Assembly (NCBI GenBank): GCA_021805205.1
Contig: JAJZFV010000015.1
Coordinates: forward strand, 1-64,000
Direction: 5' to 3'
Source: Actinomycetes bacterium
Lineage (GTDB): Bacteria > Actinomycetota > Acidimicrobiia > Acidimicrobiales > Acidimicrobiaceae
Length of the DNA: 64,000 nucleotides
The notes under the pieces are model-generated. The model saw only the letters and a program-made list of their open reading frames with translations. It was not told where the DNA came from and did not search any database. A program made the translations under genes and the position numbers. Below, one piece after another: positions 1 through 9,454 of the stretch; within the stretch, counting starts at the first letter, position 1; each line of letters starts with the position of its first letter.

Positions 1-1286
1 ACATTACCGTTTGGATCATACGCAGTGATGCTGTAGCTATTCACAGAAGCAGCAGATGCGCCTGCGCTGAACGAGACGGTGAGGCTATTTGCTCCACCCG
101 ATACCGTGTTTATAAAGGGAGCGGACGACGTAATGCCCTTATTGCCACCTGATCCGCCAGTACCGCCAGCTCCGCCAGTACCGCCGTTGCCAATTAAACC
201 ACCTGATCCGCCTGATCCGCCAGTACCACCTGATCCGCCAGTACCACCTGATCCGCCAGTACCACCTGATCCGCCAGTACCACCTGATCCGCCAGTACCA
301 CCTGATCCGCCAGTACCACCGTTGCCAATTAAACCGCCTGATCCGCCTGCACCGCCCGCACCACCAGCTCCGCCTGATCCGCCTGCACCGCCGTTGCCAA
401 ATAAACCGCCTCCACCACCAGCACCACCGTTGCCAATTAAACCACCTGATCCGCCTGCACCGCCTGCACCGCCCGCTCCGCCCGCTCCGCCTGATCCGCC
501 TGCACCGCCCGCTCCGCCTGCACCACCAGCTCCGCCTGATCCGCCTGCACCGCCGTTGCCAAATAAACCGCCTCCACCACCAGCACCGCCTGCTCCGCCT
601 GCTCCGCCAGCACCGCCGTTGCCAAATAAACCGCCTGCACCATTACTTAAGTCCCCGTTAGGATCTGGCTGAGTAGCTTGGGCATATCGAACTGCACTTT
701 GGGAATAACCGTTTGAGGTCGTTAGCTTGGGACCGAAATAGACATCGAAAGTAATAACGTCGCCGGCTGCAAAATTATGTGGCTCGCTATATTGGCCATA
801 CTGGTCTTGAAGGACAAACTGACTCGTAGTTGATCCAGCCGTCAACAGCAGTGGCGCTAACTCGTAAATAATGGGCTGATACTGATATGAGGCTACGGAA
901 ACAGAAACGTATAAAACATAGTTAGGGTTTGCAATAAAAATGCTCGTGAGAACACTGCTATTGAAGTTCAATGTGTCATTAAAAATCGAATAGTCCAAAG
1001 CTGAATAAGGGTCGATGGCATCGGATCGCGTAAGGCTTAACAGATTGTTATTACTACCGATTTGACTAAATAATGATGAGTCATTGCTTGAGATAGTTAG
1101 TGGTATCGAATAGCTATTTGAGGGCGTTGTTAACGTTGTACTGGAGCTGCCCATTGCACCTGCAGGGGCAGCGAAGAAGGCAACTGGAGCTACTACCACA
1201 GTTATTGCAATAGTGGAACGGACTCCACCATGACCCATTTTGCGACCCAAATCGATGAGCGAATATATCGTTTTTGACAAGGCCAT
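1..1286 (-). CDS. Secreted Gly-rich PGRS-like repeat protein with Fn3-like segment (C-terminus beyond window)
   Basis: The frame stays open from an ATG at 1286 down to base 1, so at least 428 residues are encoded and the C-terminus lies outside. Residues 1-45 form a long signal peptide: a basic n-region with GRKMG, a hydrophobic stretch, then FFAAPAGA. Residues of about 46-210 are a Ser/Thr/Asn/Tyr-rich domain that I do not recognise. Residues of about 214-380 are almost pure Gly/Ala/Ser/Asn/Thr, with GGAGG and GGSGG runs broken by GLFGNGG and GLIGNGG, as in mycobacterial PE_PGRS proteins. The last part (SLTVSFSAGASAASVNSYS) looks like the start of a fibronectin type III domain. It is probably an exported or surface-attached adhesin-like protein. 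There is no PE domain, so the PGRS likeness may be convergent. Function is unknown. Confidence 0.8.
   Translation of the reverse strand, partial: MALSKTIYSLIDLGRKMGHGGVRSTIAITVVVAPVAFFAAPAGAMGSSSTTLTTPSNSYSIPLTISSNDSSLFSQIGSNNNLLSLTRSDAIDPYSALDYSIFNDTLNFNSSVLTSIFIANPNYVLYVSVSVASYQYQPIIYELAPLLLTAGSTTSQFVLQDQYGQYSEPHNFAAGDVITFDVYFGPKLTTSNGYSQSAVRYAQATQPDPNGDLSNGAGGLFGNGGAGGAGGAGGAGGGGGLFGNGGAGGSGGAGGAGGAGGAGGSGGAGGAGGAGGAGGSGGLIGNGGAGGGGGLFGNGGAGGSGGAGGAGGAGGSGGLIGNGGTGGSGGTGGSGGTGGSGGTGGSGGTGGSGGTGGSGGSGGLIGNGGTGGAGGTGGSGGNKGITSSAPFINTVSGGANSLTVSFSAGASAASVNSYSITAYDPNGN
145..645 (-). repeat. Gly-rich coding repeat region (GGAGG / GL[IF]GNGG)
   Basis: Read on the minus strand, this stretch encodes short Gly-Gly-X units. 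Three GLIGNGG and three GLFGNGG blocks punctuate the array at fairly regular distances, giving a higher-order repeat. The plus strand of the same DNA reads as a Pro-rich frame, which is a shadow of the codon pattern and not a gene. Confidence 0.85.
211..318 (-). repeat. Six perfect tandem 18-bp repeats inside the Gly-rich gene
   Basis: The unit CCTGATCCGCCAGTACCA occurs six times head to tail without a mismatch. Each unit adds six residues (G-T-G-G-S-G on the minus strand), so copy-number change would alter protein length without shifting the frame. Confidence 0.9.
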
Positions 1287-1742: not shown

Positions 1743-1895
1743 CTAGGTAACAACAATCTTGGCATAGAGAACCGGGGCGGCGAAGAGGGCAATTGGAGTT
1801 GCGGCCGCTGGTACCACAATGGAGGAACGAAGTCCAATATTTCCTAGTTTACGACCCATTTCAATAAATGGAAAACGCTTTTTTGATCTCGCCAT
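1743..1895 (-). pseudogene. Orphan 50-residue signal-peptide frame, truncated paralogue of the Gly-rich protein
   Basis: ATG at 1895 opens a 50-codon frame ending in TAG at 1743. It matches the start of the Gly-rich protein: MA-SK, then a FIEMGRKLG / LIDLGRKMG block, a Leu/Val/Ala-rich core and FAAP. After the core it ends in KIVVT and a stop, and no Gly-rich frame follows. This is most simply a gene copy deleted after its signal peptide. A translated small membrane peptide is also possible, because the start and the signal-peptide pattern are intact despite nucleotide divergence. Confidence 0.65.
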
Positions 1896-2365: not shown

Positions 2366-3214
2366 TCATCGAACGATATCGGGAGCAGGAATACGTGCAT
2401 AATTCGATTTGAAGCTTCCAAATCGACCTTCATCATCATTCCACTGGCGACGCGCCTCTACAATCTCCTCCCAAGATCTCCCAATAAAGTTCCACCACAT
2501 AAGAATCCTCTCTCCGAAGGGTTCCCCGCCCAAGAGTAAGAACTTAGAACCCAACGAACCGGTGAACCTCACAGATGTCGCATCACTTACGAATTCAGCT
2601 TTTGGAGTTGCAATACCATCCATCAGGTAATCACCGGATATGGGTATAAAAACATACTCGAAATGACCATTCAAAGGCAGTTCGAAACTGGTGGATTTTG
2701 CTGTCACTACAGCACCAAGGCAAGAGCGAGAGAGGCCGATATCTAGTCTACTTCCGAGGAGCTCTCCCGAGATTAGCTCCGCACTAAAGTCAGACGACTC
2801 CAACTCAAGCGCAGAAGGAATGTGCATAAAATCTGGTGATTCCAGATATTTTTCTTGTGGAAGTGCAGCCCAAAGCTGAAGGCCAGCGAGGGCCTCGCCA
2901 GACGTTGAAATCTCACTATGGCTAACTCCAACCCCAGCGCTCATGACGTTTATTTGGCCGGGTTTGATGCTTAGCCGATTTCCCATCGAGTCCCGATGTT
3001 CAACCTCTCCATTCAGAAGATAGGTAACCGTCGCAAGACCAAAGTGGGGGTGGGGTGCCACTTCCATGGCCGCAAGGTTCGGGGTGCTCAGATTAGACAT
3101 TCGATCAACAAAACACCATGGCCCAACCGTTCGCAGCTGTGCCTTCGGCAAAAATCTCTCTATCGATATCCCACCAAGTTCGCCAGATCGACCGGAGATC
3201 TCAATCTTTACCAT
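2366..3214 (-). CDS. Pirin family protein
   Basis: This is a bicupin protein of about 282 residues. The N-terminal pirin motif is visible: a HPHFG segment, then TYLLNGEVEHRDSMG with the later His and the nearby residues that bind iron in pirins. A second cupin half follows. Pirins act as redox-sensing regulators or quercetinase-like dioxygenases; which applies here cannot be told. ATG at 3214 (MVKIEI) is preferred over a GTG three codons upstream because it follows GAGG at a suitable distance. The gene is transcribed alone, divergently from the DUF948 gene. Confidence 0.88.
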   Translation of the reverse strand: MVKIEISGRSGELGGISIERFLPKAQLRTVGPWCFVDRMSNLSTPNLAAMEVAPHPHFGLATVTYLLNGEVEHRDSMGNRLSIKPGQINVMSAGVGVSHSEISTSGEALAGLQLWAALPQEKYLESPDFMHIPSALELESSDFSAELISGELLGSRLDIGLSRSCLGAVVTAKSTSFELPLNGHFEYVFIPISGDYLMDGIATPKAEFVSDATSVRFTGSLGSKFLLLGGEPFGERILMWWNFIGRSWEEIVEARRQWNDDEGRFGSFKSNYARIPAPDIVR

Positions 3215-3329
3215 CAAATGCACCTCGCTCCGATACTGGTTTCAAATCACCGCTAATCCAAAGCTAATGAGGAGATCTTGTCGATAGCAAATTAAGATCT
3301 AAGGTACTAACACGGCGCAAGGAGAGATA

Positions 3330-5104: not shown

Positions 5105-7156
5105 CTAGTCAATATTTGGCCAATATAAATCTTGCGAAAAGCGATCGTCCCACCGCGCCACCATATACGCACGCTCGTTAGCATTTCTCTTTATCTTTTC
5201 GAGCGACAGTCCATCTTGGCCCCTGCTCTTTGACTCAAAGTGCACCACCTCGCAAAAGGGATTGTTCACAATCATCCTTCCACTTTCTGCGATTTTCAGG
5301 CAGAGGTCGATGTCGTTATAGGAGACTTTAAGGTGTACCGCATCCATTCCGCCCACCTCTAAATAGGTTGACTTTGCCACCATCAATGCAGCCCCCGTTA
5401 CCGCCGAGAATTGAGTTGGAACAAGATACTGTCCAAATTCAGGCTGGTTATCCAGCTTCTGGAAGTGCTCTACTTGAGCTTCACCAAAACCCAGCCTTAT
5501 CCCACAGTGCTGAATATCGGAGTCTGGATAGACCAACCTCTGTCCGACCACACCAACGCCCTCCAGTGTAGATAGCGCGACCATATCGGCTATGAAGTCC
5601 CCTTGGCGAACTTCAATATCGTTATTTAGAAGAAGTACAAAATCTGTGGTAATTCGATCAACTGCAAAGTTTGCAATCGCAGCAAAATTAAAGTCAAAGG
5701 GGTAGGCGATCACTTCAACTCCACCGTTCTCGAGTTCTCTCAAGAGGTCGATGGATTCTTCTTCAACAGATCCGTTGTCAACGACTACGATCCTGTAGTT
5801 TTCGTAGCTACAACTATTCTTCAATGACTCAATGCAGTTGCGCGTCAAGTCAGCCATATCGCGCATTGGAATAACCACAGCCACAGATGGCGTCGACTTC
5901 GACCTTCGGTGAACAACTTTGTATGCGGATTGATCGGAAATTTCATGTATGACCGTAGCTTCATTCGCCGACAAAAGCTCTCGGTACCTATCGTTATCAA
6001 ATAGACAACTAAATCGGGAAAAAGCCACATTAGCGTGGGGTTCGAAGAGGGCCAGTGGTTGCTTGGCGAGCTCGATGGCACCTTTATCCAGCTGAGAGAC
6101 CTCAAAGTAAATATCGGTAATTGGAGCACCTAAAAATTGCCTCCATCCATCAAATCTTTCCGCCATTCGGCCTACATCAAAGATCGCTAACTCCGCATAG
6201 ATGGGGGAGGCTATTGCCAGGTGCCTCTGGAACTTAGGTGGATTTTCAATGGTCACCGATCCACCAGTGACATCACGAACAAGACACGGGCCATATACAG
6301 CCACCGTTGCCTCAGTAAATTGCGGCGCTACCACATATTTAAGATCGGGCCGATACTCTCTCGGTGTAGAACAGATTAACATCGCGGTTTGATCTAGGTT
6401 TCCTTCGATCGGAATGTCGAACGATACCTCTTTGCCGTACAACCTTGCCATTCGCGTGGAGAAAGTTAAAGCCTCACTGCGAGGCACCGACTGTCCAGAT
6501 ACGACCAGTTTCACATCGCCAAAGCCAATCAACGCCATTATTGATCCGAGGCTTCTTCGCCAACTATCGTCGAAGATACCTTCGATTGAAATATGGACGA
6601 TAAGGGTATTCCACCCTCCAGTAGCGCTGCCAAGTTGCAGCAAATGGATAAGATCGCCGTCGAGGCGACCGTCAAAGAGGGTCCTTGCAGAAAGGGTCTC
6701 GACCTTGGTAGAGATCTGAGTCTTTACTTTAAGTCCAGCGGCCTTTACATCTTCTAGAGACCTTGCGCGCTTGGAGTTTATAACAATCTCTTTTAGAGCG
6801 GAGCGACCTTCCTCAGAGCGAAGAGCGGTGATCGAGGATCGTGCAATTGCCGTCATACGCTGAACTTGGAAGACGTTGAGCGAGATAGACACCAACACCA
6901 CTCCCTGAGTGGCAAGAGAGATCAGTACTCGCTCACCTTCATTAATGAAGATTTGCCCCACGTAAGTATTTTCGCCGCTCGAATTTAAAGCTGTGATCCG
7001 CCCCGCCTCTACCGAATGAGAAACCACGATCAAAGCAGGTTCGAGAAGTGCGTCATTTGCCACAATATAGATCTTTGCCGACGACCAACCACCTTTGAAA
7101 AAAGGTGTCACGTCGATGAACGAGTGGGGTGCCATATAAACAGAGCCCTGGCTCAA
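5105..7156 (-). CDS. Two-part protein with C-terminal family 2 glycosyltransferase
   Basis: This is a 683-residue protein. The C-terminal GT2 domain (residues of about 424-660) is clear: VAVVIPMRDMADLT, then VVVDNGS for nucleotide binding, LLLNNDIEV as the metal-binding motif, and SYNDIDLCLK as the acceptor-side motif. It resembles rhamnosyl- and galactosyl-transferases of the WbbL/GlfT type. The N-terminal 420 residues do not resemble anything I can name. They start with a beta-rich segment (FFKGGWSSAKIYIV) and may form an additional glycan- or lipid-recognising domain. The gene precedes the GT4 gene in a likely operon. Confidence 0.8.
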   Translation of the reverse strand: MSQGSVYMAPHSFIDVTPFFKGGWSSAKIYIVANDALLEPALIVVSHSVEAGRITALNSSGENTYVGQIFINEGERVLISLATQGVVLVSISLNVFQVQRMTAIARSSITALRSEEGRSALKEIVINSKRARSLEDVKAAGLKVKTQISTKVETLSARTLFDGRLDGDLIHLLQLGSATGGWNTLIVHISIEGIFDDSWRRSLGSIMALIGFGDVKLVVSGQSVPRSEALTFSTRMARLYGKEVSFDIPIEGNLDQTAMLICSTPREYRPDLKYVVAPQFTEATVAVYGPCLVRDVTGGSVTIENPPKFQRHLAIASPIYAELAIFDVGRMAERFDGWRQFLGAPITDIYFEVSQLDKGAIELAKQPLALFEPHANVAFSRFSCLFDNDRYRELLSANEATVIHEISDQSAYKVVHRRSKSTPSVAVVIPMRDMADLTRNCIESLKNSCSYENYRIVVVDNGSVEEESIDLLRELENGGVEVIAYPFDFNFAAIANFAVDRITTDFVLLLNNDIEVRQGDFIADMVALSTLEGVGVVGQRLVYPDSDIQHCGIRLGFGEAQVEHFQKLDNQPEFGQYLVPTQFSAVTGAALMVAKSTYLEVGGMDAVHLKVSYNDIDLCLKIAESGRMIVNNPFCEVVHFESKSRGQDGLSLEKIKRNANERAYMVARWDDRFSQDLYWPNID

Positions 7157-7231: not shown

Positions 7232-9454
7232 TTACTGTTTCGCCGCTACCGACTCCGCCTCGCTACCTGCTCCTTCAACAACACGGTAGGCGTCATAAAC
7301 GCTATCTAACCGCCTCAAAGCAGTGAGGACCGAATCCAGATGCGATGGATCTGCAAGTTCAAATTCGAATCTCATCCTAGATATTCGGTCAACACCAGCT
7401 TGGGTGCTTGATGACAAGATATTTAGATGGTGTTCAGCCAATACTCGAGCGACATCTGCCAATAGGCGCGCCCTGTCTAGAGCCCGGATTTCAATCTTGG
7501 CAGAAAAAACTGAGTTGGAGATGTCGGTATCCCACTCAACGTCGATCATTCGTTCGTTTGATGAAGCCGCCAGTGCTACTGCATTCGAACAAGAGGCGCG
7601 ATGAACCGACACTCCCCTGCCCCGAGTAACAAAACCAATTATTTCATCGCCTGGTACTGGAGAGCAGCATCGAGAAAAGCGAATTACTACATCGTCGAGG
7701 CCCTCTACATAGACTCCAGGAGTTTTACGCTTCCGATTCGTCCGACGATTAGTGTTCACCGTGGTTGGGATCTGGACTTCGGTCTCCTCTACAGAGAACT
7801 CTCGAAGCATCTTTTGGACCACACCCTTGGCAGATGTATGACCCTCCCCAACCGCAATGTAGAGTGCGTCTACCTCGGTAAAGCCCATGCTGGTGGCGAT
7901 CTTATGGAGTTGTTCGGCACCTGAGATCTTTTGGACCGGAAGTCCCTCTTTGCGCATCGCCTTGATCATTTCATCGCGTCCTCGATCGAGAGCGTCTTCA
8001 CGACGTTCGCGAGAGAACCAATGACGGATCTTACTCTTAGCCCTGGGGGTAACTACGATAGACTGCCAGTCACGCGACGGACCAGCACTTTCCACCTTCG
8101 AGGTAAATATCTCGACAGTATCGCCAGACTTGAGAGTGGAGTCGAGGGGAACGAGCCTTCCGTTTACCTTAGCTCCGATACAGCGGTGTCCAACTTCGGT
8201 GTGGATGGTATAGGCAAAGTCGATTGGGGTTGCCTTTGCTGGAAGTGAGACCACCTTCCCCTTAGGCGTAAATACATACACTTCATCGAGTTCGAGATCG
8301 AGCTTTAGATTCTCCAAGAATTCAATTGGATCTGGAGTGTCCTTTTGCCAATCTAAAATTCGACCAAGCCAAGCCATCTCAGCCGATGAATTTCCTTCTT
8401 TGTAACCCCAGTGGGCAGCAATTCCAAATTCAGCCCGCTGGTGCATCTCAAACGTCCTCAATTGCACCTCCAGAGGATTTCCTCCGGGAGCTATAACAGT
8501 GGTGTGGAGACTCTGATACAGATTGAACTTGGGGGTATTTATGTAGTCCTTAAATCTTCCTGGCACCGGATTCCAAAGGGCGTGTACCACTCCCAAAGAG
8601 GCCCAGCAATCCTTTTCCGATTCACAAATTATCCTCAAACCGATGATGTCGTAGATGTCATCGAACTCTTTGGTCTTAACGACCATCTTTTCGTAGATCG
8701 ACCAAAGGTGTTTGGGGCGACCTTTGATTTCGGCAACTATCCCAACGTCAGCCAGCCTCTTCTTTAATCCTTCTAGAAGCTGCTGGATAGAGGTCTCCCG
8801 CTCTGGATTTCGGGTCTGCACCATCTGTTCAATCTCAGCGTAACGACGAGGCTGCAAGGTAGCAAAGGCCAAATCTTCGAGTTGCCACCTTATCTCTTGG
8901 ATGCCTAGGCGGTGAGCAAGTGGGGCATAGATGTCCATGGTCTCTTGGGCTATACGCCGCTGCTTCCATTCAGGCAAGACCGCAAGGGTTCTCATATTGT
9001 GAAGACGATCAGCAAGCTTGATGATCAGCACCCGTGGATCTTTGGCCATCGCAATAATCATTTTGCGAACCGTCGCGGCCTGCTGCTCCTCTTTTGATTC
9101 GAAAGATAGGCGATCCAACTTTGTGACTCCGTCGACGATCGCAGCCACGTCGGGTGAGAATCTCTCTGATATCTCATCCAAATTCATGGGCGTATCTTCT
9201 ACGGTATCGTGAAGGAGTGCTGCACATATAGTCGTCTCGTCAACACCTAGCTCGGTGACGATCCTCGCTACTGCTATTGGATGCGTTACGTAGGGTTCGC
9301 CGGAGCGACGAAACTGGCCGTCGTGCATCTTGACTGCGGTCTTGAAGGCCTCTTGGATCATAGAAACATCGCTATTTGGCCTACGTGCCAAATAGGAGTC
9401 AACTATGCCGGCGAGAAGACCGGCCTCAAAGTCAGCGGTTACGCCAGGTACCAT
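7232..9454 (-). CDS. rel: Bifunctional (p)ppGpp synthetase/hydrolase RelA/SpoT
   Basis: This 740-residue protein makes and degrades the alarmone (p)ppGpp in the stringent response. Domain order is standard. The HD hydrolase domain has H58 and the HD pair at residues 82-83 in LLHDTVEDT. The synthetase domain follows (KGRPKHLWSIYEKM near residue 245, and RIICESEKDCWASLG). Next come a TGS domain (DEVYVFTPKGKVVSLP, near 390), a conserved-Cys/helical linker (SRCCSPVPGDEIIGFVTRGRG) and a C-terminal ACT domain. Length and layout match the single Rel enzyme of actinobacteria. It lies 53 bases downstream of secF, the usual actinobacterial neighbourhood. Confidence 0.96.
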   Translation of the reverse strand: MVPGVTADFEAGLLAGIVDSYLARRPNSDVSMIQEAFKTAVKMHDGQFRRSGEPYVTHPIAVARIVTELGVDETTICAALLHDTVEDTPMNLDEISERFSPDVAAIVDGVTKLDRLSFESKEEQQAATVRKMIIAMAKDPRVLIIKLADRLHNMRTLAVLPEWKQRRIAQETMDIYAPLAHRLGIQEIRWQLEDLAFATLQPRRYAEIEQMVQTRNPERETSIQQLLEGLKKRLADVGIVAEIKGRPKHLWSIYEKMVVKTKEFDDIYDIIGLRIICESEKDCWASLGVVHALWNPVPGRFKDYINTPKFNLYQSLHTTVIAPGGNPLEVQLRTFEMHQRAEFGIAAHWGYKEGNSSAEMAWLGRILDWQKDTPDPIEFLENLKLDLELDEVYVFTPKGKVVSLPAKATPIDFAYTIHTEVGHRCIGAKVNGRLVPLDSTLKSGDTVEIFTSKVESAGPSRDWQSIVVTPRAKSKIRHWFSRERREDALDRGRDEMIKAMRKEGLPVQKISGAEQLHKIATSMGFTEVDALYIAVGEGHTSAKGVVQKMLREFSVEETEVQIPTTVNTNRRTNRKRKTPGVYVEGLDDVVIRFSRCCSPVPGDEIIGFVTRGRGVSVHRASCSNAVALAASSNERMIDVEWDTDISNSVFSAKIEIRALDRARLLADVARVLAEHHLNILSSSTQAGVDRISRMRFEFELADPSHLDSVLTALRRLDSVYDAYRVVEGAGSEAESVAAKQ

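Follow-up and report, generated by a model that had tools for sequence, protein, structure and literature searches.

A probable giant secreted Fn3 surface protein with a PGRS-style GGX spacer in the Acidimicrobiaceae

INTRODUCTION

Papers on PE_PGRS proteins, PMC6016250 among them, treat the PE/PPE/PGRS family as restricted to mycobacteria. Published models of the PGRS domain fold GGX triplets into polyglycine-II sandwiches in which each helix takes 3-5 triplets and the loops at the turns are hydrophobic; within PE_PGRS33 the segment GGILIGNGGAGG resembles the GGLIGNGG/GGLFGNGG blocks described below (PMC9436101, PMC10216338).

The window analysed here is a stretch of 64,000 nucleotides that begins with the first base of contig C46 (171,189 bp), in an assembly of 2.62 Mb that comprises 55 contigs and is 89% complete. 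Its host was originally suggested to be a free-living relative of the mycobacteria; it belongs instead to the Acidimicrobiaceae, a family of iron-oxidising acidophiles in the class Acidimicrobiia, which is not the class of the mycobacteria and is not close to them. We describe a partial gene at the contig end whose product is, we think with moderate confidence, a giant secreted Fn3 protein of the cell surface or matrix, probably adhesive, that carries a GGX spacer of PGRS style. A spacer of this style in an Fn3 surface protein is an unusual design.

RESULTS

The partial gene and its product

The reading frame begins with an ATG at position 1286 of the minus strand, downstream of a plausible ribosome-binding site (GGAAGGGAA), and extends over 428 codons without a stop up to the contig end. 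Since window and contig share their first base, the gene is truncated by the assembly itself, whatever window is chosen, and its 3' flank and end are therefore not readable in the host genome. The flanking sequence that was to complete the gene ends where the contig begins, but a homologue in the related genome G010 allows the far side to be read in that genome. The long signal peptide, the Ser/Asn-rich domain and the Gly array of about 165 residues with GL[IF]GNGG blocks that had been read originally are all present in this frame (Table 1). The earlier description of a secreted Gly-rich surface protein is supported, and the Sec-type signal peptide, recognised by inspection, would direct its export.

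Searches of the 428-aa protein with Pfam and NCBIfam profiles gave no match above cut-off. Apart from the host, no genome in a sample of 298 from the order (one that does not include G010) had a match to the N-terminal domain, and none was found in the named genomes searched.

Table 1. Features of the partial gene and its surroundings, with related loci; positions are those of the window unless a locus is named
Feature	Position	Strand	Remarks
Secreted Gly-rich/Fn3 protein, partial gene	3..1286	-	At least 428 aa; contig end cuts gene
Long Sec-type signal peptide, residues 1-44, MALSKTIYSLIDLGRKMGHGGVRSTIAITVVVAPVAFFAAPAGA	1155..1286	-	By inspection; residue boundary approximate
Ser/Thr/Asn-rich N-terminal domain, residues about 45-215	642..1154	-	No Pfam match; weakly similar to G010 protein
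GGX triplet array, residues 216-381	144..641	-	Unbroken register
GGLFGNGG block 1	613..635	-	DNA pattern for GGL[IF]GNGG
GGLFGNGG block 2	550..572	-	DNA pattern for GGL[IF]GNGG
GGLIGNGG block 3	424..446	-	DNA pattern for GGL[IF]GNGG
GGLFGNGG block 4	388..410	-	DNA pattern for GGL[IF]GNGG
GGLIGNGG block 5	316..338	-	DNA pattern for GGL[IF]GNGG
GGLIGNGG block 6	181..203	-	DNA pattern for GGL[IF]GNGG
Perfect 18-bp tandem repeat within array	211..320	-	6.1 copies; encodes GGTGGS
Fn3 domain, N-terminal half, residues about 385-428	3..134	-	53% identity to G010 domain
Degenerate second copy of gene start	1746..1895	-	50-aa ORF with related signal peptide, then stop
Pirin-family gene	2366..3223	-	Upstream of Gly-rich/Fn3 gene; conserved neighbour anchoring synteny
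PGRS-like lipoprotein (G216)	L129:6418-8595		Lipobox VSAC
PGRS-like lipoprotein (G192)	L130:6543-8792		Lipobox VSAC
Conserved small ORF after rarA	L108:5039-5200	+	Cut
Conserved small ORF after rarA	L101, about 6330-6520	-
Conserved small ORF after rarA	L109, about 7720-7930	-

The DNA around the start of the gene and that around the degenerate copy upstream are 67% identical over 242 bp, and the region upstream of the G010 gene shows 72-73% identity to both. The simplest reading would be a tandem duplication of the gene start, followed by decay of one copy.

Synteny with G010 and the missing 3' part

Genome G010, of the same genus as the host, carries a homologous gene that likewise lies directly after a pirin gene; glycosyltransferase genes (named by inspection) accompany pirin on the upstream side in all three of the window, G010 and G011. 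The first 64 residues of the two proteins are 50% identical (E 3e-8), with similar signal peptides, and beyond the signal peptide the N-terminal domains show a weak relationship (local score 57 versus 36.6 +/- 6.4 for shuffles, p about 0.007). Contig C30 of G010 stops 320 codons into the homologous gene. The first bases of the G010 contig C61 already belong to an open frame, 2505 aa long, whose end lies about 520 bp from rarA, beside aspS (both genes named by inspection, with rarA used as a landmark); judging from synteny, the two pieces appear to be one gene interrupted by an assembly gap. In G011 rarA and aspS come immediately after pirin, and the Gly-rich/Fn3 gene is missing. In the host, 270 bp separate rarA from the end of contig C20, so that the unassembled 3' part of the gene belongs to the gap that separates C46 from C20.

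No other piece of the gene was found in the host assembly with the C-terminal Fn3 sequence of G010 as query. Two candidate joins were rejected: the Fn3 frame at the start of host contig C42 belongs to a different protein, on the minus strand near suf genes and itself running off the contig start, and the overlap of the first 140 window bases with another contig consisted of chance matches only. A scan of the named genomes for pirin returned distant relatives only. Just after rarA, three genomes of the genus share a small conserved reading frame that encodes about 63-65 aa (MNVSATTTPPVAPQ...KKDGDGDHG[IV]EP...LASGGKVYA).

The Fn3 domain and its giant relatives

The Fn3-like character proposed for the C-terminal part is supported through the homologue. 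Taken alone, the window fragment falls below Pfam fn3 and gives a sub-threshold match to CBM_X2 (E 0.04). Its last 43 or so residues match residues 2033-2075 of the G010 protein with 53% identity over 43 aa (E 6e-12), at an alignment score of 120 versus a shuffle maximum of 56; the complete G010 domain reaches 26.6 bits against a cut-off of 25 for Pfam fn3 (PF00041), and it is because this homologue passes that the fragment is identified as Fn3. Profile searches had been proposed for both ends of the protein, and neither the N-terminal domain nor the C-terminal fragment scores directly, but the G010 counterpart of the latter does.

The 2505-aa piece of G010 holds ten Pfam fn3 stretches, with one domain above the fn3 cut-off, and closes with six DGGVF-type repeats of about 42 aa each (such as GYYLVGKDGGVFAFGDAQFYGS) that occupy the last 260 or so residues of the frame (3-7520 of L109). 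Repeats of this type and length are common to giant surface proteins of the family; those of G010 have no significant Pfam or PDB match, the best being CshA_repeat, below cut-off, and they possibly form a propeller. Relatives in related genomes, for which a search had been advised, were thus found, both as the syntenic G010 gene and as giant Fn3 proteins in G018, G019 and G030; these last are 2172-2463 aa long and combine a signal-like N-terminus with numerous fn3 domains and with DGG repeats at the C-terminal end, and the G030 protein has short poly-Gly linkers after the signal peptide and before the C-terminal repeats. A second Fn3 protein of the host, that on contig C42 (L014:3-2777, minus strand, cut by the contig start), combines NGGGINNSGTLSATNDTI repeats with C-terminal DGGVF repeats, and its gene shares the suf neighbourhood of the giant Fn3 protein gene of G030.

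The layouts of the two syntenic genes differ strongly: the matching domain of G010 comes after some 2000 aa that consist mostly of Fn3 repeats, whereas the window gene reaches that domain right after its array, and the readable G010 gene contains no GGX array. By transfer from G010, we infer that the gene continues in the host genome into a stack of Fn3 domains and C-terminal repeats.

The location of the gene at a contig start, and the perfect repeats within it, are what might be expected of an array produced by misassembly or chimera formation. Both flanks of the array, the signal peptide on one side and the Fn3 piece on the other, are however homologous to the same locus in G010, and the frame is unbroken through all 428 codons; such an artefact is very unlikely.

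The GGX triplet array

The array comprises 166 aa, 64% of them Gly, and keeps one register throughout. GG-X accounts for 48 of its 54 triplets (19 GGA, 13 GGS, 8 GGT, 6 GGL and 2 GGG), the other six being [F/I]GN, every one directly after GGL; in 2000 shuffles of the array residues the number of GG-first triplets averaged 25 and never exceeded 32. Within the array the 18-bp repeat is free of mismatches, a sign of recent slippage; the length of the array therefore probably varies, and the number of copies in the assembly is not certain. Successive GL[IF]GN blocks are spaced 7, 14, 4, 8 and 15 triplets apart; four of these five spacings would fit pairs of helices of 3-5 triplets, a suggestion that rests on six blocks. 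Third codon positions in the array are 31% GC. AlphaFold2 returned two models of low confidence (mean pLDDT 40 and 41, the array being at about 41), which did not confirm a polyglycine-II fold, and PDB matches of the array were to collagens and were discounted as reflecting composition.

It is possible, though on the unlikely side, that the array is a flexible low-complexity linker, grown by slippage and lacking a specific fold, in an otherwise ordinary Fn3 surface protein. The perfect 18-bp repeat with its 6.1 copies, the absence of the array from the readable G010 gene, the low pLDDT and the short poly-Gly linkers of the G030 relative are all in keeping with such a linker, but a register unbroken over 54 triplets and six L[IF]GN blocks placed always after GGL represent more order than a linker needs. 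Between a packed polyglycine-II module and a slippage-grown linker, we favour the packed module as the probable nature of the spacer.

An ice-binding role like that of the polyglycine-II domains of springtail antifreeze proteins, which follow the same GGX triplet rule (PMC10235112), is scarcely credible: the match of the array to one of them (2pne) is weak (E 0.94) and worse than the composition-driven collagen matches, such matches reflect composition, and there is no pointer to a cold habitat.

Relation to PE_PGRS proteins

As originally noted, a PE domain is absent; Pfam (PF00934) finds none in the 428-aa protein or in 42 genomes of the family, the named controls including no mycobacterium. 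Residues 8-9 are Tyr-Ser in place of Pro-Glu, and the GRPLI motif is missing from the 428-aa sequence, while a GGA/GGX triplet array of the kind seen in PE_PGRS proteins is present. Given the lack of the PE domain, of Pro-Glu at positions 8-9 and of GRPLI, and given a Sec-type signal, the protein is not a PE_PGRS, and the resemblance is one of repeat style only; the PGRS style proposed at the outset holds for the repeats and their blocks, and does not extend to domain, motif or signal. That a true PGRS domain was gained from mycobacteria by gene transfer is extremely improbable, for although the GGLIGNGG/GGLFGNGG blocks resemble segments of PE_PGRS33, the third-position GC of the array (0.31) is unlike that of a GC-rich donor, no PE domain accompanies it, and descent cannot be read from triplet sequence alone.

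Similar arrays elsewhere

Only two of the 42 family genomes contain long coding GGX or GGS runs: the host, in the window, and G038, in an unrelated protein. The G038 protein (L083:3677-4684) is secreted and has a GSG/GGS array at its end. GGX pattern matches in G012 and G015 were rejected as other-frame or antisense readings and not GGX proteins. The DNA pattern for GGL[IF]GNGG, applied to 397 genomes of the order, gave six matches in the window and one in each of four other genomes; GGLFGNGG matches in G377 and G249 were dismissed as other-frame noise. G192 and G216, which belong to one genus of another Acidimicrobiales family (f53), encode lipoproteins with about 550 PGRS-like residues, with no Pfam or NCBIfam match and no PE domain. 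By inspection, these lipoprotein genes lie near cytochrome-P450-like genes. The f53 lipoproteins are unrelated to the window protein, so that PGRS-like arrays lacking a PE domain have more than one occurrence outside mycobacteria. Because such arrays break easily in assemblies, their absence elsewhere is weak evidence.

DISCUSSION

The reading we prefer, a giant Fn3 surface protein with a PGRS-style spacer, would have the following mechanism. A Sec-type signal peptide would export the protein; the GGX array that follows the N-terminal domain would be a spacer grown by slippage, probably packed as polyglycine-II helices, in which the six L[IF]GN blocks would form hydrophobic turns. A binding surface would be held or presented by the part after the array, at least one Fn3 domain and probably also a domain of DGGVF repeats at the C-terminus. 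Adhesion of cell to cell or of cell to mineral in biofilm or streamer growth would be the likely role, and the adhesin or matrix function suggested originally is accordingly best called plausible.

A broader proposal, which we advance tentatively and consider doubtful as yet, is that PGRS-like polyglycine-II arrays may be a surface module of general use, with more than one origin in the Actinomycetota: on PE domains in mycobacteria, on lipoproteins in one Acidimicrobiales family and, here, in a giant Fn3 protein, where the array, stiff and hydrophobic along an edge, would take the place of the Fn3 stack as spacer. With its triplet rule and hydrophobic blocks found both on an Fn3 protein and on the f53 lipoproteins, the PGRS-like array is separated from the PE domain; non-pathogenic acidophiles offer systems in which the fold and surface role of such arrays could be studied.

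Among known systems, the snow-flea antifreeze proteins (2pne) share the GGX triplet rule that gives polyglycine-II bundles, but they are eukaryotic, ice-binding and 81 aa long, and their similarity to the array is at the level of composition. The f53 lipoproteins are alike in having a GGX-rich array with a GGLFGNGG block and no PE domain; they differ in their lipobox signal, in register shifts among all three phases, in a Gly content of 47%, in the lack of Fn3 and in a different N-terminal region. The giant Fn3/DGGVF proteins of the Acidimicrobiaceae (G010, G018, G019 and G030) are connected to the window protein through the syntenic gene in G010, the related signal peptide and the homologous Fn3 domain, whereas in the sequences read they have no GGX array and Fn3 domains occupy its place. 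With PE_PGRS proteins such as PE_PGRS33 the window protein shares a long GGA/GGX array, hydrophobic L-I/F-G-N-G-G blocks, repeats of variable length and a presumed surface exposure; it differs in having neither PE domain nor GRPLI, in its Sec-type signal peptide, in the Fn3 domain that follows the array, and in coming from a different bacterial class, with AT-rich third codon positions.
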